DNA from: Bacteroidia bacterium 43-41
Lineage (GTDB): Bacteria > Bacteroidota > Bacteroidia > Bacteroidales > Dysgonomonadaceae
Reading direction: 5' to 3'
Length of the DNA stretch: 64,000 bases
Assembly (NCBI GenBank): GCA_001898165.1
Contig: MKTD01000057.1
Location: 1 to 64,000 of the forward strand
A model generated the notes under the pieces. It was not told the DNA's origin. It did no database searches and worked only from the letters and a program-made list of their open reading frames with translations. Position 1 is the stretch's first letter; every line of letters starts with the position of its first letter. Positions 866 to 14,340 of the stretch are shown here, piece by piece. The position numbers and the translations under genes are program-made.

Positions 866-1855
866 TCAATCTATGATTCCGAATGCCCGCCTCACATCCT
901 CGTAATTGCTGAAATCTACACTGCTCCTGGTTGATGGCACACCACCCGGAATGATAACGTAGCGGAATACCAAATTACCAAGGGAAGGTGGACCAACGGC
1001 GTTACCGCTCCGGTAATAACTTTGAAATTCAATTGTTGAAAGTCTTGCCATAAAGGAATATGGCTCCGTCTCATGACTCAATTGGATGATATATTCATTG
1101 TTATTTTGGTAAGTTACTTTTTGATAAACAATCACAACACCTCTATCAATAATTTGCTGTGTGATTTCCGGAACATTGAGAGAATAGTAGAGCAGATAAT
1201 CAACGGTGGAAATACGCATCCAGTCACTATAAATTACGTTTGCCGTGCCGGGATCGCCTTTATCACCCTTGTCACCCTTGTCACCTTTAACTCCTTGATC
1301 GCCTTTGTCGCCTTTATCACCCTTGGGCCCTTTCAGGTTAAAAGGTGTTCCCCAGCTTGAGGTCATTTTGGGTCCGTAAAGCAATCCGTTCGTCTTGTCC
1401 AGATAATAATCTCCTGTCGCTCCCAACGACTGCTGGGGAGTTCCGTTACCCGACAATATCTTACTGCCCGGCACACCTGCGGGACCTTGCTTCCCGGCAA
1501 CACCCTGTGGTCCTGTATTCCCTTGTGGACCTTGTGGACCTTGTGGACCTTGTGGACCTTGTGGACCTTGGGATCCGGCGGTTCCGGCGACGCCCTTCAA
1601 CGGTACGCCCGCTCCCCAGTTGCCGGATAGTTTGGGGCCGTAAAGCGTAGCGGCAAGCTTATCGACATACATGTCTCCGTCACGGCCAATCGCGGCTGTT
1701 GGAGGCACATCACCCGAATGGAACATGACGCCGTCTATCCCGGGTAGTCCTTGCTCGCCCTGAATTCCCATCGGTCCTTCATCCCCTATGCACCCTGGAT
1801 TCATTGAAAGGATGACAAGAACGGCGGCAATACCGAAAAATTTGAATACTTTCAT
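866..1855 (-). CDS. Collagen-like repeat lipoprotein
   Basis: This 329-residue protein begins with a lipoprotein-type signal (Cys22, followed by acidic residues as in surface-exported Bacteroidota lipoproteins, although the lipobox NPGC is weak). Three collagen-like Gly-X-Y blocks lie at about residues 24-42, 88-130 (GPQ repeats) and 176-204 (GDK repeats). Between them sit two copies of a roughly 45-residue module (about 43-87 and 131-175) sharing GDxYxD, LYGPK and LKG. The last 125 residues form a separate C-terminal domain I do not recognise. Bacterial collagen-like regions form trimeric stalks, so a surface fibre is likely by inference. The GPQ block is encoded by a perfect 9-bp tandem repeat (1521-1565). 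The start is preceded by a 17-bp direct repeat (1863-1896). Confidence 0.85.
1521..1570. repeat. 9-bp tandem repeat in collagen-like gene
   Basis: Five exact copies of CCTTGTGGA followed by a partial copy encode the Pro-Gln-Gly repeat of the collagen-like protein. The unit is a multiple of three, so slippage would change stalk length without breaking the frame. Confidence 0.95.
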
Positions 1856-5183: not shown

Positions 5184-5621
5184 TTATTTTTTGTCCTTCA
5201 GCAACGTTTCCAAAAGAGCATTTTTCTCTTTCTCCAGCTCGAGCATCCGTTCGTACAGGGCAGTTTTCTCATTGGACAATTCGATGAACCGGTCAACTGG
5301 ATCGGGGTTATTATTGATATCTCCATCATTATAATAAATACCAGCCATACAACCTTTCTCGAACGTATTGTTTTCAATGATGAAAGTTACCGGGTCTTCC
5401 TTCAGTTCCTTGATCAGTTCGGGAGCCACGTTGAGGGCTTTGGCAAAACGTTCGATTACATCGTCGTTGAGGACTTTTCTCTGTTCGTAAGTAGAAATCA
5501 GCGCTTGGCTGAGTCCCATCATGGAGGCCAGTGCTTCTTGCTTTATCCCCAGCGTGTGCCGGAAACGCTTAACGGCGTGCCCGTGGTGAGTGTTTTTTGA
5601 TGTTTGTTCCTTTGTTTCCAT
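5184..5621 (-). CDS. Xre-type helix-turn-helix regulator with coiled-coil tail
   Basis: I place the start at 5621 (METKEQTSK), giving 145 residues. The frame stays open 117 bp further upstream, but that stretch encodes atypical residues and contains the paired palindromes expected of an operator. An HTH_3/Xre domain occupies about residues 15-72 (IKQEALASMMGLSQALISTYEQ is the DNA-contact region, allowing for the loop). The C-terminal 40 residues (FIELSNEKTALYERMLELEKEKNALLETL) form a heptad-like coiled coil, probably for dimerisation. The two near-identical palindromes at 5670-5704 sit about 50-80 bp before the start and suggest autoregulation. A cognate target is not visible. Confidence 0.85.
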   Translation of the reverse strand: METKEQTSKNTHHGHAVKRFRHTLGIKQEALASMMGLSQALISTYEQRKVLNDDVIERFAKALNVAPELIKELKEDPVTFIIENNTFEKGCMAGIYYNDGDINNNPDPVDRFIELSNEKTALYERMLELEKEKNALLETLLKDKK

Positions 5622-5669
5622 ATATCTCCGGATATTGTTACCGCAAATATATGCAAAAAACGGGATACA

Positions 5670-5704
5670 TTGATAACTATCAACGCGAAATTGATAACTA
5701 TCAA
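5670..5704. promoter_or_regulatory. Paired 14-bp palindromes, probable operator
   Basis: TTGATAACTATCAA occurs twice, at 5670-5683 and 5691-5704. Each has perfectly complementary 6-base arms (TTGATA/TATCAA). The centre-to-centre distance is 21 bp, two helical turns, as expected for two repressor dimers on one DNA face. They lie directly upstream of the Xre-type regulator. Confidence 0.7.
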
Positions 5705-5819
5705 TGCACTTCTTAACAGATACTTCATAAAATCTCATTTACTTTGGGCATTTAACAAACGATAAATAAATTAAAAAATAAAATGCTATGGGACCATAAC
5801 AGAATTTAGAATGAATTGT

Positions 5820-5827
5820 TACCTTTG
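5820..5827 (+). promoter_or_regulatory. Candidate -7 box for leader RNA
   Basis: TACCTTTG matches TAnnTTTG exactly and would start transcription near 5833, ahead of the structured leader. It overlaps the start of a perfect 11-bp inverted repeat (5824-5834 with 5838-5848, loop AAA), which could be an operator or a 5' hairpin. No clear -33 element was found. Confidence 0.45.
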
Positions 5828-5832
5828 TACCG

Positions 5833-6016
5833 TAAAATACGGTACAAAATAATATAGCGCTTTTTTGGTCTTTATAACGAATCCGCAAAATTCAAATCAG
5901 GAGACCAGGAATGGAAGCGCCCTTAGCAATAAGGGCGTGGACATTGTTCTATTCTCCTGGAAGGCCCTTGCGGAGCCTGTTATAAGGAATAGCGACAATC
6001 GTCCACGCCTCTTTTT
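5833..6016 (+). ncRNA. Structured leader RNA / putative attenuator
   Basis: The segment can fold into an ordered set of helices. A first domain pairs GCGCTT (5857-5862) with AAGCGC (5915-5920) around a GGTCT/AGACC helix (5867-5871 with 5902-5906). A perfect 8-bp hairpin capped by a GCAA tetraloop follows (5918-5937). A second hairpin pairs GGCGTGGAC (5934-5942) with GTCCACGCC (6001-6009), extended by ATTGT/ACAAT, and is followed by CTCTTTTTTT. The tetraloop hairpin shares bases with both neighbours, so terminator and antiterminator states are mutually exclusive, as in riboswitches or attenuators. It does not match a riboswitch consensus I know. It could also be a stand-alone small RNA. The next gene, susC, begins 250 bp downstream. 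Confidence 0.5.
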
Positions 6017-6018
6017 TT
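6001..6018 (+). terminator. Rho-independent terminator of the leader
   Basis: The 3' arm GTCCACGCC closes a long hairpin with 5934-5942 and is followed within two bases by seven T. This is the strongest terminator-like element in the leader region. Confidence 0.6.
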
Positions 6019-6157
6019 ATATCCCCGCATATACATTAAAGCCACACCGAATAAGATTCAGCAGTCCGGCTATCGACTCTCTTATTCTTTCTTCGCCCGT
6101 ACGATTGCCCGCTACTGCACCGGGTTTCAGTTACCTGCAAACTTTTTCCTCTTTCAG

Positions 6158-6245
6158 CCGGCATTAGCCGGAAATATCCGTTTAATTTTTCAATAAACGC
6201 CGACAAGGCATTTGCCGTTTGTAACGGATCAAATTTGTAGTCGGC
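6158..6245 (+). promoter_or_regulatory. Second structured element before susC
   Basis: A CCGGC-ATTA-GCCGG hairpin (6158-6171) is followed by a possible three-way junction: GCCGAC (6199-6204) pairs with GTCGGC (6240-6245) around two small hairpins, GGC-ATTT-GCC and CCGTT-TGT-AACGG. The closing arm ends 21 bp before the susC start. It may be 5' UTR structure or a protein site. Confidence 0.4.
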
Positions 6246-6266
6246 TTGTAAACATTAACATATACT

Positions 6267-9200
6267 ATGATGGAAAAAAACAAATCTAATTATCCTGAAT
6301 TTTACCTGTCGTTATCCGTCTTACGGGATATATACGCACGATGCCGGTTGTTATTCCTGCTATTGGCGGGATCCTTTCTTTTTATAAACTCTATTTATGC
6401 GCAAACAGTCACCGTGACCGGAAAAGTCGTTGATGAAGATGGAGATCCGCTTATAGGAGCAAATATCATTGAAAAAGATAATCCTTCGAACGGGACCGTT
6501 ACCAATGAGGATGGCTACTACAGCATTCAAACGGACAAAGGCCATACGTTGCGTTTTTCCTATATAGGGTTCCTCACAAAAGAAGCAATTGTACAAGGCA
6601 ATATCCTCAACATCACGATGGAAAGTAGTTCTATAGCCATGTCGGAGTTGATGGTGGTAGCTTACGGTACCACCGACAAGCGTACCTACACCGGCTCCGT
6701 GGCTACCGTTAACGCAGAGAGTATAACCAGAAACAGATCGAATAACGTGTTATCAAGCCTTCAAGGCCTTGTGCCGGGCATCCAGCTGGAAAATAAATCC
6801 CGGAGAGGAGGACAAAGCACGCCGGAGATAGTGATCAGGGGAGCCTCTTCCATCAACGCAAGCATACAACCCTTGTACATCATTGACGGGGTTCCGAATG
6901 ATGCGATGAGACACCTGAATCCCGACGACATCGAATCCATATCCGTCCTGAAAGATGCCGCGGCTATCTCCCTTTATGGGGCGAGGGCGACAAACGGGGT
7001 TATCCTCATCACCACAAAGCAGGGAAAAAGGACAGGCGACCGGGTCGTAGTCTCCTATACCGGCCAGTTTGGCTATTCCACCCGCTCCGGCCGCGATTAC
7101 GAACAGGTGTCACCGAATGAATATTATGAGTTGACCTGGGAAGCGATGCGGAACGGAGCAATCGATGACGGGGGGTTACTTACGGCAGGAGGCAAGTCTT
7201 ATAAAACCCCGGAGGAGTACGCCACAAACGAGCTTCTTAACACGCTGGGATATAATGCCTTTAATATGAACAACCCGGTGGAAATGGACGGGAGGCTACA
7301 TCCCGATGCGCAACTGCTGTGGTGGGAAGATTACAATAAAAAACTGCTGGGCACCGGATCACGGAACGAGCATTCTTTCAGCATTAGTGGGGCATCCGAG
7401 AGGATTAGTTACTACCTTTCGACCGGTTATTTGAATCAGCGGGGAATTGAACCCGGGAACCCCGGTTTTGACAGGTTTACCACCAGATTGAACTTTACGT
7501 ATAAAATCAATAACAAGGTCTCGGTAGGGACAAATATCAGCGTCAGTTCTTCCAACTCCCGGACAACCGGCATCGACAACGGATATGCAGATTTCACGAC
7601 GTACGCACGGCTCACGCCGGGGTTATACCCCCTATACAAAAGGGATCCGGCAGGCAAGTTGGTTTACGGCGAGGATGGCAATCCCATTCTTGACTTTGGG
7701 AACGGCCCGTCGGATCTGATGAACTCCCGTCGCCCGGACGTTACCGGGACAGGGCCCGCTCATGGCGTAAACCCGCTGGGAACGCTGGACCTTAATAAAT
7801 CGACAAGCAAAGGAAATTATATCTTTACCAACTATTACTTTGATTATGATATTCTTGAGAACCTGAACTTCAAGGCAAGTTATTCCAGAAACATCTCCAC
7901 CGATAAGTCATCGGTTTACCGCAACAGGACAATTGGCTCGGCGACATCTACCAACGGCGCCATGGACGTGACGACATCCGAATATGTCAACTGGACCACC
8001 AACGGAATCCTCACCTACAATAAAAACTGGGACAATAAACATAACCTGAAACTGATGGCCGGTACGGAAATCAACGAATGGAGCACATCGAACATGAGTG
8101 CGTCGGTCAGAAACTTTGCTTTTGAAGGAATGGACGAACTGGTAAACGGTTCGGATATTGTGAGGCCGGGCCTCGGCCCCGGCACATCATCGGAACAACG
8201 TTTGGTTGGCTTCTTTTCGAGGGCCGAATATAATTTTCTCAACAGATATTTCCTTTTGGGAAGCATCAGGAGAGACGGCTCTTCCAATTTTCATCCCGAT
8301 ACCCGCTGGGGTAACTTTTGGAGCCTTGGCGCCGGATGGCTTGCGTCGGAAGAAACGTTCCTGAAAGACATCAATTGGATCTCATTGTTAAAATTCAGAG
8401 GCAGCTACGGGACTTCCGGCAATATCGGCTCGCACGATTACAGGGCCTATTACAAGTCAGGCTATTCGTTTCTGGGACAATCGGGCGTTTATATTTCCAG
8501 TATGCCCAACCGTTTCCTGAAGTGGGAAGTGAACAAGCAGTTAAATCTCGGCTTAGATGCAAATTTTATCAAAAACCGCATTTGCCTCTCTGTCGACTTG
8601 TATAACCGGGTAACGGACGATCTGTTTTACAACGTGCCCTTATCGCCATCCATAGGATTCAGCCAGGTACTCCGTAACATCGGCTCGTTAAGTAACAAGG
8701 GAGTTGAGCTTTCACTGACTACTGAAAACATTACCACACGGGATTTCAACTGGACCACTAATTTCAACATCGCCCACAACAAGAACAAGATACGATCATT
8801 GAATCAGGATGAGTTCGTTACAGGGTACAGAATCTATAAAGTGGGACAAAGCACAACCGAATTTTATATTGCAGAATATGCCGGTGTAAACCCCGAAAAC
8901 GGGAAATCCCGGTGGTATATTGATGAGGTGGATGAGACCTCCGGAGAAAAAACCGGTAAACGGGTAACCACGGAGAACTTTAACGAAACCAGCTACAAAT
9001 CGGTCCGCCTGGCAGATGGTTCTTACAAGGTATTCAGGGACCTCGGACGTAAACCGGCCGGAAATTTCACACCAAAAGTAACGGGAGGATTTCTCAATTC
9101 TTTCCGTATAAAGAATGTGGATTTTAGTTTTCTCTTCAATTATTCACTCGGATCCAAAGTTTTAATGATGGATTATGCTGCCTTGACATCCTCGGCCGGA

Positions 9201-9560
9201 GGGGTGTTTCATAAAGACATGCTGAACAGGTGGCAGCAACCGGGCGATGTAACTTCCATTCCCAAGTTGACAACATACAAAACAGGGAATTATACCGGAA
9301 GCAGTTCCTATATCTCTACTTTCTATTTGCGGAAAGGGGACTACCTGAAGTTGAAAAACGTAACTTTGGGATATACATTGCCCGCCAACACCACCAACGC
9401 GTTCCACATCTCCTCGACCAGAGTTTACATGCAGGCCGACAATGTTTTTTATCTCAGCCATGAGCGGGGATTCGATCCCGAACAGGTTTCCATGGGTCTC
9501 GTCAACACCATCTACCCTGCACTGGCCACCTATTCAGTGGGAATAAAATTAGAATTTTAA
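6267..9560 (+). CDS. SusC/RagA-family TonB-dependent outer-membrane transporter
   Basis: This 1097-residue protein forms the outer-membrane channel that imports a ligand captured by its SusD partner, powered by TonB. The signal peptide is long, with a charged N-terminal stretch and a hydrophobic segment ending IYAQ near residue 46. A carboxypeptidase-regulatory-like domain follows (VTGKVVDEDGDPLIGANI...), then the TonB-box region (ELMVVAYGT), the plug (VPGIQLENKS, IRGASSI, YIIDGVPND, SISVLKDAAAISLYGARATNGVILITTK) and a beta-barrel ending in the terminal strand YSVGIKLEF. ATG codons at 6267 and 6270 are both possible starts. The susD gene follows after 16 bp. The ligand is not known; the TlpA and DsbD genes downstream do not define one. 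Confidence 0.95.
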   Translation: MMEKNKSNYPEFYLSLSVLRDIYARCRLLFLLLAGSFLFINSIYAQTVTVTGKVVDEDGDPLIGANIIEKDNPSNGTVTNEDGYYSIQTDKGHTLRFSYIGFLTKEAIVQGNILNITMESSSIAMSELMVVAYGTTDKRTYTGSVATVNAESITRNRSNNVLSSLQGLVPGIQLENKSRRGGQSTPEIVIRGASSINASIQPLYIIDGVPNDAMRHLNPDDIESISVLKDAAAISLYGARATNGVILITTKQGKRTGDRVVVSYTGQFGYSTRSGRDYEQVSPNEYYELTWEAMRNGAIDDGGLLTAGGKSYKTPEEYATNELLNTLGYNAFNMNNPVEMDGRLHPDAQLLWWEDYNKKLLGTGSRNEHSFSISGASERISYYLSTGYLNQRGIEPGNPGFDRFTTRLNFTYKINNKVSVGTNISVSSSNSRTTGIDNGYADFTTYARLTPGLYPLYKRDPAGKLVYGEDGNPILDFGNGPSDLMNSRRPDVTGTGPAHGVNPLGTLDLNKSTSKGNYIFTNYYFDYDILENLNFKASYSRNISTDKSSVYRNRTIGSATSTNGAMDVTTSEYVNWTTNGILTYNKNWDNKHNLKLMAGTEINEWSTSNMSASVRNFAFEGMDELVNGSDIVRPGLGPGTSSEQRLVGFFSRAEYNFLNRYFLLGSIRRDGSSNFHPDTRWGNFWSLGAGWLASEETFLKDINWISLLKFRGSYGTSGNIGSHDYRAYYKSGYSFLGQSGVYISSMPNRFLKWEVNKQLNLGLDANFIKNRICLSVDLYNRVTDDLFYNVPLSPSIGFSQVLRNIGSLSNKGVELSLTTENITTRDFNWTTNFNIAHNKNKIRSLNQDEFVTGYRIYKVGQSTTEFYIAEYAGVNPENGKSRWYIDEVDETSGEKTGKRVTTENFNETSYKSVRLADGSYKVFRDLGRKPAGNFTPKVTGGFLNSFRIKNVDFSFLFNYSLGSKVLMMDYAALTSSAGGVFHKDMLNRWQQPGDVTSIPKLTTYKTGNYTGSSSYISTFYLRKGDYLKLKNVTLGYTLPANTTNAFHISSTRVYMQADNVFYLSHERGFDPEQVSMGLVNTIYPALATYSVGIKLEF

Positions 9561-9576
9561 AAATAAAAATTGACGT

Positions 9577-11043
9577 ATGAAAAAAAATATAATTACAGCA
9601 GTCATTCTTTGCCTTATCACTTCCTTGACCGGATGTGATGATTTTCTGGATGTCGTGCCTCGCGATAAAGTTTCGTCCGACATCGTTTTCAACAGCGACA
9701 AATCTACAGAGGTGGTGCTAAACGGCGTCTATGACCATATGACATATGCCGCCGAAGGGTTTTTCATATATGCTCCAAGCCTCGGGATCCACAATTTTAT
9801 CGTTTCAGGAGATTGGATGGGACAGGATGTTATCCCCAAAAGCAGCATCACACAATGGCAGGCCGATGATTACAGCTTCACCTCGCGCGGTATGGAGAAA
9901 GATCGTCCCCGGTTCTTCTGGTCCTATTGTTACAGCCATATTAATGTACTGAACGATTTGCTGGCCCGAATCCCATCCATGCAGGGAAGTCCTTCTGCTA
10001 AAAAACAAATAGAAGGAGAAGCGCGGGGGCTGAGGGCCTATAACTATTTCTTGCTTACACAATGGTTTCAACAGACATATTTGATTGATCCACAGGCACC
10101 CGGCGTGCCCCTTTATCTGGAGAGTGCAATCGACCCAAAACCACGCGCTTCAATGGAAGAGAACTTCAAGGCCATCATACAGGATCTGCAGTGGGCGATT
10201 CAAAATATGAGTGAGGAAAGAAGGGGCGGTTCAAAATATGTAATCGGCAAAGATGTGGCAAAAGGGTTACTCGCCAAGGCATATCTGGAAGTGGGCCAAT
10301 ACGCCGAAGCGAAGGTCCTCGCGGAAGAGTTGGCATCAAAATACCCGCTGATGACGGAAGAAGAATATAAAAAGGGTTTCAGTGACGTGGACGTATCGGA
10401 ATGTATCTGGGGATTGCCTGTTTCCACAAAAAACATGAATGCCAATTATTGCTTGCAGACGATCTGGTCCCACCCCCGCAAGCATAAAAGATGGTCCAAT
10501 AATTTTGTCTTTTTGAACGATTTATTTGTGGAATTGTTCTCTGAGAGCGATATGCGAAAAGGGCTTATCTCACTAAATCCGGTTGCCGGAGATGCGGAGA
10601 GGTATCCCGAACGGAAATATGTGAGTTCAAAAATCATGGATCCCGACGATGCCCAAAAACTGCCGGACGTCTTGCTGATGAGGAGCAGTGAAATGATTCT
10701 CATTCAAGCCGAATGTGCAGCCCGGATGAACCAATCCCCCGAAGCCCAAACGATTTTATTCCGGCTTCAGAAGCATCGCGATCCAAATGCGATAATCAGC
10801 ACGGCAACCGGAGAGGAGTTGCTGGACGAGATCCTGATAGAAAGGCGGAAGGAACTTTACGGGGAAGGATTTGCGATAGGGGACATAAAGCGTATGCGCA
10901 AACCGTTAATAAGGAAAGGATTGCACACGATAAAAGGCGTCGGGGCTACCGGCGTACTATACCCGGCGGACAGCCATGAATTCTTTCTGCAAATTCCGCA
11001 AGACGAAATACAAACCAATCTTGAGATCATACAGAATCCATAA
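9577..11043 (+). CDS. SusD/RagB-family outer-membrane lipoprotein
   Basis: The 488-residue product is the surface lipoprotein that caps the SusC channel and binds its substrate. The signal peptide ends in the lipobox LTGC (Cys20) followed by DDFLDVVP, the usual start of mature SusD proteins. TPR-like helices fill the N-terminal half (QIEGEARGLRAYNYFLLTQWF; VAKGLLAKAYLEVGQYAEA), and the C-terminal RagB/SusD domain includes LMRSSEMILIQAECAARM and ILIERRKELYGEGFAIGDIKRM. Both are hallmark segments. It lies 16 bp after susC and 18 bp before the TlpA-like gene, so co-transcription is likely. Confidence 0.95.
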   Translation: MKKNIITAVILCLITSLTGCDDFLDVVPRDKVSSDIVFNSDKSTEVVLNGVYDHMTYAAEGFFIYAPSLGIHNFIVSGDWMGQDVIPKSSITQWQADDYSFTSRGMEKDRPRFFWSYCYSHINVLNDLLARIPSMQGSPSAKKQIEGEARGLRAYNYFLLTQWFQQTYLIDPQAPGVPLYLESAIDPKPRASMEENFKAIIQDLQWAIQNMSEERRGGSKYVIGKDVAKGLLAKAYLEVGQYAEAKVLAEELASKYPLMTEEEYKKGFSDVDVSECIWGLPVSTKNMNANYCLQTIWSHPRKHKRWSNNFVFLNDLFVELFSESDMRKGLISLNPVAGDAERYPERKYVSSKIMDPDDAQKLPDVLLMRSSEMILIQAECAARMNQSPEAQTILFRLQKHRDPNAIISTATGEELLDEILIERRKELYGEGFAIGDIKRMRKPLIRKGLHTIKGVGATGVLYPADSHEFFLQIPQDEIQTNLEIIQNP

Positions 11044-11061
11044 TTATAAATAATAACAAAA

Positions 11062-12192
11062 ATGAAACAATTAATCCAAACACTGTTTTTTTTACTGCTG
11101 GCTACTGTCGTGTATGCGCAGGAAAGTACCATTACCGTCCGCGGAACCGTTAAATTTCCGGATGAAAAGTTTCCCATCCTTATCTACTATACTGACGGTC
11201 CGGAGAGAATCGATATTGATTCAATTCCACTGAAAAATGACAACTCGTTCGAGAAGAGAATTACGTTGCCCCATCCCGGCGTTTACAGAATTGACGTGCA
11301 AAAATGGGAGAACCTCTCTTTCTGGGGTGAAGATGAGGACATCACGGTAAATTTCAGGGGTAGTGATACGGCACGGGTGAAAATCAAGAACCCTCCTTAC
11401 GAGTTTATTGAAAACGCGGGGCCTAACAATCAATTGATGAACCTCCTCAACTATTTCAATTACAGAAGTTATCAGACAATGATTCAGGCAGGCCAGGAAA
11501 GCTACCGTGCCATGAAAAGTGATTCCGAAGAATGGAAAGAATACGCGAATGAGGGTTACGCCAGAAATGAGGATAACACGCTGGCAGATTATATATTCCT
11601 TGCTAAAAATTACAGCGGAAGGAACAGCGCCGTGGCCCTGCTCCCGTATTTAAGAAATACGCCGGTCAAAGATGAGTTAATAGCCAGGCTGGAAACGACA
11701 AAAAGCAATTACTATCCGTTTGTACAATATAAAAAGGAGGAGAAGGAGAGAGTTGAAAAACTGAGTAATTTACAACCAGGGATGAAAGCTCCTCATTTTT
11801 CACTGCCTGCACCGGACGGTATTCAAAAATCAGGGCCGGAAAATTACAAGGGGAAATACCTGTTGATTGACTTCTGGGCATCGTGGTGCGGTCCTTGTTT
11901 AAATACCATTCCCCACCTGAAAGAGATTTACAGCAAGTATAACGCAAAAGGGCTGGAGATTTTGTCCGTTTCTATCGATGACAAGGAGGATGCCTGGAAA
12001 AAAGCCCTGGCAAAACAACAGATGCCGTGGGACCAGGTCCGCGCGCCCAACTCGGGCAAGGAGATCATGAAGGATTATCAGTTTTCCGGTATTCCCCATC
12101 TTGTATTGTTGGATAAGGAGGGAAAGATTATTGAACGGTGGATCTCCCCGGAAAAACTGGAAGGATTACTAAAAGAAAGACTCTACAAATAA
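11062..12192 (+). CDS. TlpA-like periplasmic thiol-disulfide oxidoreductase
   Basis: The 376-residue protein has a signal peptide (ending VVYAQ, residue 20), an N-terminal DUF4369-like beta domain (about 23-110), a helical linker and a C-terminal AhpC/TSA-TlpA thioredoxin fold (about 240-376). The active site WCGPC (Cys276, Cys279) and the cis-proline segment GIPHLVLL are intact. Such proteins reduce or exchange disulfides in the periplasm and are often encoded next to SusC/SusD pairs. Here it follows susD by 18 bp, and a DsbD gene follows, which could supply its electrons. The partner relation is an inference from gene order. Its substrate is not known. Confidence 0.9.
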   Translation: MKQLIQTLFFLLLATVVYAQESTITVRGTVKFPDEKFPILIYYTDGPERIDIDSIPLKNDNSFEKRITLPHPGVYRIDVQKWENLSFWGEDEDITVNFRGSDTARVKIKNPPYEFIENAGPNNQLMNLLNYFNYRSYQTMIQAGQESYRAMKSDSEEWKEYANEGYARNEDNTLADYIFLAKNYSGRNSAVALLPYLRNTPVKDELIARLETTKSNYYPFVQYKKEEKERVEKLSNLQPGMKAPHFSLPAPDGIQKSGPENYKGKYLLIDFWASWCGPCLNTIPHLKEIYSKYNAKGLEILSVSIDDKEDAWKKALAKQQMPWDQVRAPNSGKEIMKDYQFSGIPHLVLLDKEGKIIERWISPEKLEGLLKERLYK

Positions 12193-12306: not shown

Positions 12307-14340
12307 ATGAAATCACTAACCACCCTCTTTGGCTTTCTGTTCCTTTTAACCTCCCTCACCTTTGCTCAGGACGAGGCGACGTGGAGCTTTTCTCTGGAAG
12401 ACAAAGGAAAGGGAGAGATAGATCTGGTTGCCGAAGCGAAAATAAAAAAAGGATGGCATCTTTACGATACGGATATACCCGACGGAGGCCCCAGTCCCAC
12501 TCAACTCAGCTTCGATAAGGTCACCGGAGCGGAACCTGTCGGTGAATTCCATGCTGATGGCAAGCAGGCAACAGTGAAGTACGATGCTATCTTTCAGATG
12601 AACATAGGTACGTTTCAGGACAATGCCCGGTTTGTACAACGACTAAGAGTGACTGACAAAGCCGGCTTCTCAATACAGGGCGATGTGCGTGCCCAGGCAT
12701 GTGACAACAGTAGCTGCACCCCTCCCTTGCCGCACGATTTTTCCTTCACGGCGGCAGAGCTGCCGGCCACGATCACCGTTGCCGCACCCACTGTATCTGC
12801 GGCAAGCGAAACAAGTTTGCCGCTTACAACCCTGTCTCCGGCACAAGTTGCGGACAGCCTGCAAGTGTCAGCGCCCATTGCTGCTATCTCGGCGGAGATT
12901 GACGGCGATGGGCTTTGGACACCTGTGATTGATGAGTTGCAGGTTTTCGGAGTAAAAGGGGGCACCACCGGCATGTCTCTGTTTTGGATTTTCTTCTCCG
13001 GGTTTATCGGCGGGCTTATTGCGTTGGTTACTCCCTGTGTATGGCCCATGATACCAATGACCGTAAGCTTTTTCCTGAAACGGAATAAAACAGAAAAGAA
13101 AAAGGCCGTCACTGAAGCGCTGGTTTATGGCAGCGCCATCATTGTGATATATGTAGTGATGGGGCTTCTTATTACCGGGATCTTCGGTGCTAGCGCCCTG
13201 AACAACCTGGCTACCAGCGCCCTGTTCAATCTGATTTTCTTTGCCCTCCTGGTCGTTTTCGCCATCGCCTTCTTCGGTGGTTTTGATTTAGTGCTCCCAT
13301 CTAAATGGACAAACAGGATGGACGAGAAAGCGGATAAAACATCCGGGGCACTCAGCATCTTCTTCATGGCTTTTACCCTTGTGCTGGTATCATTCTCCTG
13401 TACAGGCCCCATTATCGGGACACTATTGGTGGAAGCGGCAGTATCGGGCAACATCCTGGGGCCCGCCATCGGCATGCTGGGGTTTGCCATTGCCCCGGCC
13501 ATTCCTTTTGTGCTTTTTGCCATCTTCCCGTCATGGTTAACCAACCTGCCCAAGTCCGGCGGATGGCTTAACTCGGTAAAAGTGGTGTTGGGGTTTCTCG
13601 AGCTGGCGTTGGCTCTTAAGTTCCTGTCTGTTGCCGATCTGGCATACGGATGGGGTATATTCGACCGGGAAGTATTTCTGGTGCTATGGATTGTGATCTT
13701 TACCCTGCTGGGCATCTACCTGCTCGGGAAACTCAAATTTCCCGGCGACAACGATCTGCGGCATATCACTGTACCGCGACTATTCCTTTCTATCATCTCG
13801 CTCGCCTTCGCCATTTATATGATTCCCGGATTATGGGGCGCACCGTTAAAAGCTACCAGCGCCTTCTCTCCTCCCTTATATACTCAGGATTTTAACCTGT
13901 ACAACGGTGAGGTGCATGCCCGGGCGATGGATTATGAAACCGGTGTCGCCATGGCAAAGCAACAGGACAAGCCGGTACTGATAGATTTTTCCGGTTACGG
14001 CTGTGTGAATTGTCGAAAAATGGAGGCATCGGTATGGACCGACCCCCGCGTGAAAAATATCCTTGATAATGAATATATCCTTATTACATTGATGGTGGAT
14101 GATAAAACACGCCTGCCCGAAATTATTGAGGTGAATGAAAACGAGAGGACAACACGACTGAAAACGGTCGGAGACAAATGGAGTTACCTGCAGCGTCACA
14201 AATTCGGAGCCAATGCTCAACCTTATTACATCGCCCTGGATCATGAGGGGAAACCGCTAAGCCCTTCGTATGCCTATGATGAGAGTGTGGAGAAATATTT
14301 AGAATTCTTGCAGGCAGGATTGACAAACTTTAAAAAATAA
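12307..14340 (+). CDS. dsbD: DsbD-type thiol:disulfide interchange protein
   Basis: The 677-residue protein carries electrons from cytoplasmic thioredoxin across the inner membrane to periplasmic thiol proteins. All three modules are present. The N-terminal DsbD-alpha-like domain (about 21-150) has the Cys pair CDNSSC (132, 137). The transmembrane domain (about 225-510, eight hydrophobic segments) has the conserved cysteines TPCVWPM (Cys244) and SFSCTGP (Cys365). The C-terminal thioredoxin-like domain has GCVNC (Cys566, Cys569). A signal peptide ends at TFAQ. It lies 114 bp after the TlpA-like gene, with a weak hairpin between, so it may be read from the same transcript or its own promoter. 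Confidence 0.95.
   Translation: MKSLTTLFGFLFLLTSLTFAQDEATWSFSLEDKGKGEIDLVAEAKIKKGWHLYDTDIPDGGPSPTQLSFDKVTGAEPVGEFHADGKQATVKYDAIFQMNIGTFQDNARFVQRLRVTDKAGFSIQGDVRAQACDNSSCTPPLPHDFSFTAAELPATITVAAPTVSAASETSLPLTTLSPAQVADSLQVSAPIAAISAEIDGDGLWTPVIDELQVFGVKGGTTGMSLFWIFFSGFIGGLIALVTPCVWPMIPMTVSFFLKRNKTEKKKAVTEALVYGSAIIVIYVVMGLLITGIFGASALNNLATSALFNLIFFALLVVFAIAFFGGFDLVLPSKWTNRMDEKADKTSGALSIFFMAFTLVLVSFSCTGPIIGTLLVEAAVSGNILGPAIGMLGFAIAPAIPFVLFAIFPSWLTNLPKSGGWLNSVKVVLGFLELALALKFLSVADLAYGWGIFDREVFLVLWIVIFTLLGIYLLGKLKFPGDNDLRHITVPRLFLSIISLAFAIYMIPGLWGAPLKATSAFSPPLYTQDFNLYNGEVHARAMDYETGVAMAKQQDKPVLIDFSGYGCVNCRKMEASVWTDPRVKNILDNEYILITLMVDDKTRLPEIIEVNENERTTRLKTVGDKWSYLQRHKFGANAQPYYIALDHEGKPLSPSYAYDESVEKYLEFLQAGLTNFKK

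Follow-up and report, generated by a model that had tools for sequence, protein, structure and literature searches.

A candidate class of attenuator leader RNAs with long-range helices upstream of susC and other surface-protein genes in Bacteroidota

The susC gene of Bacteroidia bacterium 43-41 (genome size 3.6 Mb) is preceded by a structured RNA that probably represents a new class of cis-acting 5' attenuator leaders. The RNA has its own candidate promoter, two hairpin domains joined by three long-range helices, and a terminator that would set the level of read-through into the gene behind it, here the susC-susD-tlpA-dsbD genes. This reading is based on the structure, covariation, competition between strands, leader position, promoter signal and wide distribution of the family. 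The RNA lies in a window of 64,000 nucleotides, the whole stretch of DNA that was analysed, to which all coordinates refer unless a locus is named. The first-pass annotation of this stretch had described a promoter-like box, a 5' domain, a perfect GCAA-capped hairpin and a terminator with a T-run, and all four are in place; the inverted repeat over the promoter (5824-5848) and the long-range helices H1, H2 and H3 were absent from it. The features of the locus are the following.

5184-5621, minus strand: divergent XRE/Cro-type HTH protein; the ORF is open to 5738, and homology in many relatives stops at 5621
5820-5827, plus strand: -7 box TACCTTTG of a Bacteroidetes-type promoter, from sequence
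5824-5848, no strand assigned: perfect inverted repeat TTTGTACCGTA-AAA-TACGGTACAAA over the promoter, candidate operator or 5'-end hairpin; imperfect in close copies
5855-6018, plus strand: core of the structured leader RNA with the intrinsic terminator at its end, from 15 aligned close copies, covariance models R1 and R2, and relatives
5857-5920, plus strand: 5' domain (5' hairpin), from sequence and fold
5857-5862, plus strand: 5' strand of P1, partner 5915-5920; P1/P2 tested jointly at arm level
5867-5871, plus strand: 5' strand of P2, GGUCU, partner 5902-5906; close copies show two-sided changes at two of its five pairs
5872-5878, plus strand: 5' strand of H1, UUAUAAC, long-range partner 5979-5985; 7/7 pairs change on both sides
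5879-5893, plus strand: PL hairpin GAAU-CCGCAAA-AUUC, partner of the PR loop through its own loop; its stem is 94.5% paired and has two-sided changes at two pairs
5882-5888, plus strand: 5' strand of H2, UCCGCAA, loop-loop helix, partner 5968-5974; covariation
5898-5904, plus strand: 5' strand of H3, CAGGAGA, long-range partner 5953-5959; covariation
5918-5937, plus strand: HP, perfect GCAA-capped hairpin CGCCCUUA-GCAA-UAAGGGCG, competing with the terminator 5' arm and P1
5934-5942 and 6001-6009, plus strand: lower stem of the terminator, 5' arm GGCGUGGAC and 3' arm
5943-5947/5995-5999 and 5949-5954/5987-5992, plus strand: upper stems of the terminator
5963-5977, plus strand: PR hairpin GGC-CCUUGCGGA-GCC within the terminator loop
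6012-6018, plus strand: T-run of the terminator, from sequence
6019-6266, plus strand: spacer between the RNA and susC, partly conserved among close copies, best at 6100-6187
6267-9560, plus strand: SusC/RagA outer-membrane transporter, the putative controlled gene
9577-11043, 11062-12192 and 12307-14340, plus strand: SusD, TlpA-like and DsbD-like genes following susC

The box TACCTTTG matches the Bacteroidetes sigma-A consensus TAnnTTTG, as given in PMC9723704. Its position suggests a transcription start near 5832-5835. The inverted repeat spans both the -7 box and the expected start and lies beside the divergent XRE regulator gene. By eye, longer inverted repeats are seen at the equivalent site of other copies (e.g. 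L099 and L131), and thus the repeat in the window may instead be a hairpin at the 5' end of the transcript. Elsewhere in the window, the protein encoded at 866-1855 (minus strand) of this bacterial genome has a collagen-repeat match (PF01391).

The fold of the region 5820-6018 has an energy of -73.9 kcal/mol, the mean of shuffled sequences being -44.7 (z = -6.76, none of 200 shuffles as good). Helices H1, H2 and H3 link the loop of the 5' hairpin to the loop of the terminator, and the two strands of H2 are the loops of the local hairpins PL and PR. These long-range helices are the defining feature of the RNA class. In an alignment of 67 members each of the 21 pairs in H1-H3 has two-sided changes that retain the pairing, and the fraction of paired cells is 97.0% for H1, 93.4% for H2 and 98.0% for H3; the whole structure has 674 two-sided cells versus 230 in shuffles. 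Since this alignment was fitted to a model containing H1-H3, the cleaner test for these helices is given by the 15 full close copies, which were aligned by MAFFT and not fitted to the structure. Here H1, H2, H3 and HP together have 13 two-sided pairs and 49 two-sided cells versus 11.9 cells in shuffles, with none of 500 shuffles as good by either count, and sliding the helix partners abolishes the signal. The two-hairpin fold of the same copies has three two-sided pairs, two of them in P2, which is not above shuffles (241/500) and counts against the attenuator reading, and a covariation score above all 500 shuffles. Given these copies, RNAalifold chooses a rod in which the 5' end is paired with the 3' end as well.

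The other elements vary in how well they are held by the 67 members. The lower stem of the terminator is 89.9% paired, with two-sided changes in four of its seven pairs; the upper stem is 57.5% paired, which counts against the attenuator reading. The three pairs of PR are 80.6% paired with no two-sided changes. The canonical PL/PR pair was judged by us to be present in 69 of 72 members, the search itself demanding this plan. Three of the 72 (L146, L151, L165) were considered mis-parsed and were removed together with near-duplicates, leaving 55 non-redundant members. Among these, the H1 strand scores 17.7 with its own partner versus 8.1 with a foreign one, and the H3 strand 20.7 versus 12.4. 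The analogous result for H2 is biased, since the loop search requires complementary loops: in a control of this search a score of 25 was reached by 55/55 members; 325 chimeras reached it in 33.5% of cases and 165 shuffles in 24.8%.

The capped hairpin HP had been described as overlapping both its neighbours, and indeed its positions 5918-5920 also belong to the 5' domain and its positions 5934-5937 to the terminator; in the drawn structure it excludes the lower stem of the terminator and trims P1. The competing elements each fit their own partners. With narrower segments and gaps allowed, the own versus foreign scores in the 55 members are 26.1 versus 19.1 for the P1/P2 arm, 32.0 versus 22.0 for the terminator and 31.4 versus 22.0 for HP (0/2000 permutations in each case), HP having been located as the best hairpin of each sequence, a procedure that favours its own score. 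In this test arms that are not partners have no clear excess, and P2a:Tb, the outer rod pairing of fold B (see below), is weakly supported (17.5 versus 16.7, 36/2000 permutations). With wider segments the excess is small (18.9 versus 15.9 for P2, 23.8 versus 20.3 for T); this and the weak P2a:Tb pairing count against the attenuator reading. In the 67-member alignment seven of the eight HP pairs change on both sides and 70.7% of cells are paired, while in the 15 close copies the stem pairs are invariant. Thus, as expected of an attenuator, the terminator and a competing hairpin share a strand and both are supported by covariation, more weakly so in the close copies.

The loop of HP is GCAA in ten and GAAA in five of the close copies, and by our scan the 55 non-redundant members have five GNRA, two UNCG and 48 other loops. 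The GCAA loop is a trait of this clade and the GNRA cap is incidental to the RNA class. The attenuator-like logic proposed in the first-pass annotation is supported by the structure conserved in relatives, by the fit of the 5' stem, HP and the terminator to their own partners despite competition, by the lack of an Rfam match to the RNA and by the leader position (54/69, see below). The candidate leader peptide, starting at an ATG inside AATGGAAGCGCCC in the 15 close copies, was rejected, as it was not seen in the distant members inspected; the base that varies at this site is the N of a GNRA loop.

The following mode of regulation would be consistent with these structures. Fold A would consist of the 5' stem P1/P2 together with the terminator. 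In fold B, HP would capture the 5' arm of the terminator and read-through should be allowed. H1 and H3 could bridge the two domains in either fold. The strand order permits the junctions P2/H1/T/H3 and H1/PL/H3/PR, so that, on paper, P1/P2, T, H1 and H3 could all form together with the loop-loop helix. The elements P2, H1, T and H3 may be drawn as a four-way junction, the arms of which could re-pair to H3 and HP; this would turn P2 and T into HP with a rod. Such four-way-junction switching is our inference from the structure as drawn. The balance between A and B would control transcription, and a factor, be it a metabolite, a protein or an RNA, would set it. When nested energies are computed, 52 of 55 members prefer the rod, with the 3' arm of the terminator free, to the two-domain fold, a point against the attenuator reading; this calculation leaves out all pseudoknot pairs of the terminator fold. 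The copy in the window is among the three exceptions: its two domains have -60.5 and its rod -56.4.

The position of the relatives is mostly that of a leader. The nearest downstream ORF within 400 nt of 69 relatives (68 from outside the close clade and the home copy in L169, some of them inter-related) is on the same strand in 54 cases, on the opposite strand in 6, and absent in 9, by mechanical ORF calls of which a few are doubtful (L107, L104). For the upstream ORF of the same relatives the counts are 34, 22 and 13. In 54 non-redundant loci they are 44/3/7 downstream versus 29/15/10 upstream. The distance from the end of the RNA to the first start codon has a median of 56 nt with quartiles 49 and 91 (101 loci). 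The gap of about 250 nt to susC in the window is unlike this, and counts against the attenuator reading. Within 70 nt upstream of the RNA the promoter signal TANNTTTG is present in 36 of the 69 relatives, compared with 11 of 256 control windows; shuffles contain it in 5% of cases.

The genes behind the RNA often encode candidate secreted proteins. By a crude rule of our own, signal-peptide-like starts are enriched among the first ORFs, with 64 of 101, paralogues included, the control being 39 of 245 other ORFs taken from these loci. Leaving out the 40 extra-copy loci from few genomes gives 33 of 66, and restriction to non-redundant loci gives 26 of 53. A Pfam scan covered 30 of the 89 listed first ORFs of at least 90 amino acids. 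It found the SusC/TonB receptor, porin, SUMF1-like, WG and SprB repeats, and the type IX sorting tail, and further CsgG (three ORFs), sortilin/BNR, receptor-L/LRR-like, BACON, caspase and FG-GAP domains. LytTR, response regulator, N6 methylase, RmuC and a RibD-like enzyme were also seen, and 10 of the 30 scanned ORFs had no Pfam match. The downstream genes are so diverse that they suggest no obvious metabolite, which counts against the attenuator reading.

Several other motifs lie near the copies. Two DUF805 RNAs (RF03081) occur at L133:1700-1765 and 2664-2732, the first directly behind the copy and before its gene; an RNA of the Rfam cis-regulatory type between the copy and the gene fits the leader role. 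In many copies of the genome with 40 matches (L189-L208) the first 50 nt after the RNA contain a small hairpin CACCUUU-CCGGGGACUUU-CAAGGUG before the start codon. Stretches containing GGGGA follow several copies in another genome (G272). A SAM-II riboswitch match of 67.4 bits was found at L228:2768-2826, in the same locus as a copy but outside the RNA.

The first-pass annotation also allowed for a stand-alone small RNA that ends before susC. In a stronger form, the RNA would always end at its terminator and act in trans on other messages, like FopS of Bacteroides, whose sRNAs, according to PMC11697453, repress susC translation in trans via their own 5' end on the susC mRNA. This precedent near SusC, the RNA's own promoter signal and terminator, the many matches per genome, and the copies between genes read the other way all agree with such a role. 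However, a same-strand ORF follows 54 of 69 copies, in most cases some 40-130 nt away, a plain sRNA needs no competing hairpin HP, and the variable elements are consumed by internal pairing. We consider the trans-acting sRNA unlikely as an explanation of the family. A stand-alone RNA does fit a minority of copies: in four loci of one genus (L103, L104, L107, L130) the RNA lies between mnmA-type (tRNA_Me_trans) and ispF-type (YgbB) genes that are read in the opposite direction, the identity of these neighbours having been checked in L124. No conserved small ORF was found behind the four copies, which counts against the attenuator reading, and they may be stand-alone RNAs. The copies of this genus are the plainest departures from leader placement.

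The attenuator leader, as we prefer to read it, is widespread. Covariance model R1 was built from the 15 close copies, and model R2 from 34 members; E-values of both are rough by the search tool's own statement. R1 finds relatives in 17 of 101 genomes of the home family and in 11 of 295 genomes drawn from the order, the own genome being counted in both, and the distant relatives hold the same structural plan with new letters. R2 has matches at a nominal E <= 0.001 in 170 of 393 Bacteroidales genomes and in 40 of 296 Bacteroidota genomes, the latter being the own genome, one of the order, 24 of the class and 14 beyond it. In 422,120 bases of fetched loci, R2 recovers the 38 expected matches (two of which are one place) and a single weak extra one (L126, 34.8 bits). 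R1 also matches the reverse strand of several members, as expected from the rod shape. Eight genomes chosen mostly for high counts have 40, 27, 21, 11, 10, 5, 2 and 1 matches, the weakest of them near 38 bits. The home genome has three close copies and five matches with the wider-family model, one of them partial.

Such numbers could also be produced by a selfish or mobile repeat of the MITE/REP type that spreads a promoter and a terminator, the fold serving the element and not the gene. Genomes with as many as 40 matches, some of which lie near contig ends, and a partial home-genome copy (L170, G000:C2, about 6204-6324, minus strand), whose 3' end passes into unrelated sequence beside an ISL3-type transposase ORF (5532-6164), would agree with this. 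However, the copies have a preferred orientation and spacing to the downstream ORF, and in the genome with 40 matches 15 of the 20 fetched copies share the spacer and, unless the contig ends first, one paralogous surface-protein family; the private compensated helices described below are hard to explain by recent transposition. A mobile repeat thus seems quite improbable. Plasmid or phage cargo was rejected, as the close-copy sequence has no blastn match at E 0.01 in either collection.

The nearest named holders of the RNA, among the 12 contig stretches found, are Petrimonas sp. IBARAKI and Proteiniphilum species. The order of genes in Petrimonas/Proteiniphilum is XRE regulator, RNA, SusC-type transporter. 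Twenty close-copy loci were compared, some being near-identical between genomes (e.g. L043/L047 and L046/L050). An XRE-type gene is divergent upstream in 19 of them, the exception (L048) starting about 350 bases before the aligned start. A SusC relative is downstream in 19 of 20, behind another ORF in L048 and L049. Identity to the window proteins is about 24-30% for SusC versus 34-84% for XRE; thus the regulatory cassette is better conserved than the transporter. Judging from its position, the XRE protein of this clade probably acts on the promoter repeat. A universal XRE partnership was rejected: relatives of the window XRE protein accompany the Petrimonas/Proteiniphilum copies, and of 18 distant loci L110 alone has one. 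Damage is seen in four of the 20 close copies, which could be natural on/off mutants. All or most of the 3' half is missing from L049 and L051, while in L053 and L054 the promoter box and segments of the RNA are gone. L049 resembles a deletion fusing the 5' hairpin to the T-run; in L051 it is the terminator half that is absent.

That control in the window is exerted by an XRE repressor at the promoter palindrome, with the RNA a constitutive insulator or terminator without a switch, is suggested by the divergent XRE gene in 19 of 20 close loci and the perfect repeat over the -7 box, but is very improbable, as the RNA family is far wider than the XRE association (1/18 distant loci) and the mutually exclusive helices are supported.

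The helices H1 and H3 of paralogous copies are strongly divergent. From the genome with 40 matches (G449) 20 copies were fetched and 15 used (105 pairs, MAFFT columns). For the 5' arm the mean pairwise identity is 0.89, for the 3' arm of the terminator 0.94 and for the spacer 0.92. The middle part that contains HP has 0.76, the upstream 60 nt have 0.73 and the kissing loops 0.69 and 0.67; the values fall to 0.43 and 0.35 for the H1 strands and to 0.40 and 0.41 for the H3 strands. Nevertheless, in every one of the 15 copies its own H1 and its own H3 have at least 8 contiguous pairs, G-U allowed, versus 4 of 210 foreign combinations reaching 7 pairs for H1 and 19 of 210 for H3; with shuffled partners the numbers are 2 and 11. 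In two other genomes (10 and 7 copies fetched, less alike elsewhere) own helices also exceed foreign ones, with one short H1 of 4 pairs. Similarly, in 19 Petrimonas/Proteiniphilum copies (171 pairs) H1a is 0.53 and H3a 0.71 identical, and the rest 0.92. Four cross-genome pairs with the rest at 0.96-1.00 share both keys, whereas others at 0.957-0.969 do not. Among seven same-genome pairs H1 differs in five and is shared in two, and H1 and H3 are both shared in none.

Compensated positions that outpace the spacer and the upstream DNA are unusual for plain structural helices, and their fast change suggests selection for difference. Tentatively, each leader could carry a private self-complementary key, made of H1, H3 and in part the kissing loop, by which paralogues would recognise their own half; for example, a terminated leader would feed back on its own gene alone. 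This would amount to gene-by-gene control of surface proteins by orthogonal RNA self-recognition, an idea that we regard as doubtful. Active avoidance of cross-pairing between copies was not seen when own, foreign and shuffled partners were compared. The divergence may also reflect neutral saturation or selection against recombination between repeats. Still, hypervariable yet compensated helices make orthogonality among paralogous RNAs a specific and testable claim. If the attenuator reading is right, the family is a widespread class of regulatory RNAs in Bacteroidota, located before genes for outer-membrane transporters, for surface repeat proteins and for proteins carrying type IX sorting tails, and provides a direct handle on the gene-by-gene control of SusC/SusD and surface-protein repertoires.

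The first-pass annotation could not assign the RNA to a known class, and neither could the Rfam covariance-model scans; the conservation and covariation in relatives by which it could be checked are present, as the covariance models and the two-sided changes in 21/21 pairs of H1-H3 demonstrate. No Rfam 15 family reaches its gathering score on the window RNA, including 6S-Flavo, Bacteroidales-1, Flavo-1 and cobalamin, and at E up to 10 the RNA matches eukaryotic RNA families alone (E 0.12-7.4). In the sets of 14, 20 and 16 relatives scanned, no Rfam match overlaps the RNA; the matches there lie elsewhere. Titles and abstract beginnings retrieved by searches of 5.39 million open papers contain no description of it, and it may have been predicted earlier among the 3161 candidate RNAs in human microbiomes; that report names HTH-XRE among the most frequent neighbours of candidates (PMC8040213).

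Like FopS, the RNA forms a multicopy Bacteroidales family with its own promoters and a connection to SusC; unlike FopS, which acts in trans, it is mostly placed as a cis leader (PMC11697453). Rfp18 of Flavobacterium psychrophilum is also a strongly structured Bacteroidota RNA, conserved in its genus and affecting protease mRNAs (PMC9723704). The DUF805 RNA (RF03081) is likewise of the Rfam cis-regulatory type, but is a separate 68-nt motif that adjoins the copy in L133 and does not overlap it. In CopA/CopT, ColE1 RNAI/RNAII and phi29 pRNA, hairpin loops are complementary and the sequence of the loop or helix sets self against non-self; here, by contrast, both predicted partners are in one transcript. 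The closest likeness is to attenuating riboswitches and to leaders controlled by proteins or RNAs, which also combine a promoter-proximal 5' position, a structured domain, and an intrinsic terminator with a competing hairpin. Unlike them, the domain can be depicted as two four-way junctions that a loop-loop helix closes, the copy number is very high in some genomes, the targets are diverse and often secreted, and the private helices are hypervariable. Given the leader position and the lack of an earlier description in the literature covered, we therefore place the RNA as a new class within a known kind, the cis-acting attenuator leaders, with an unusual architecture and evolution.
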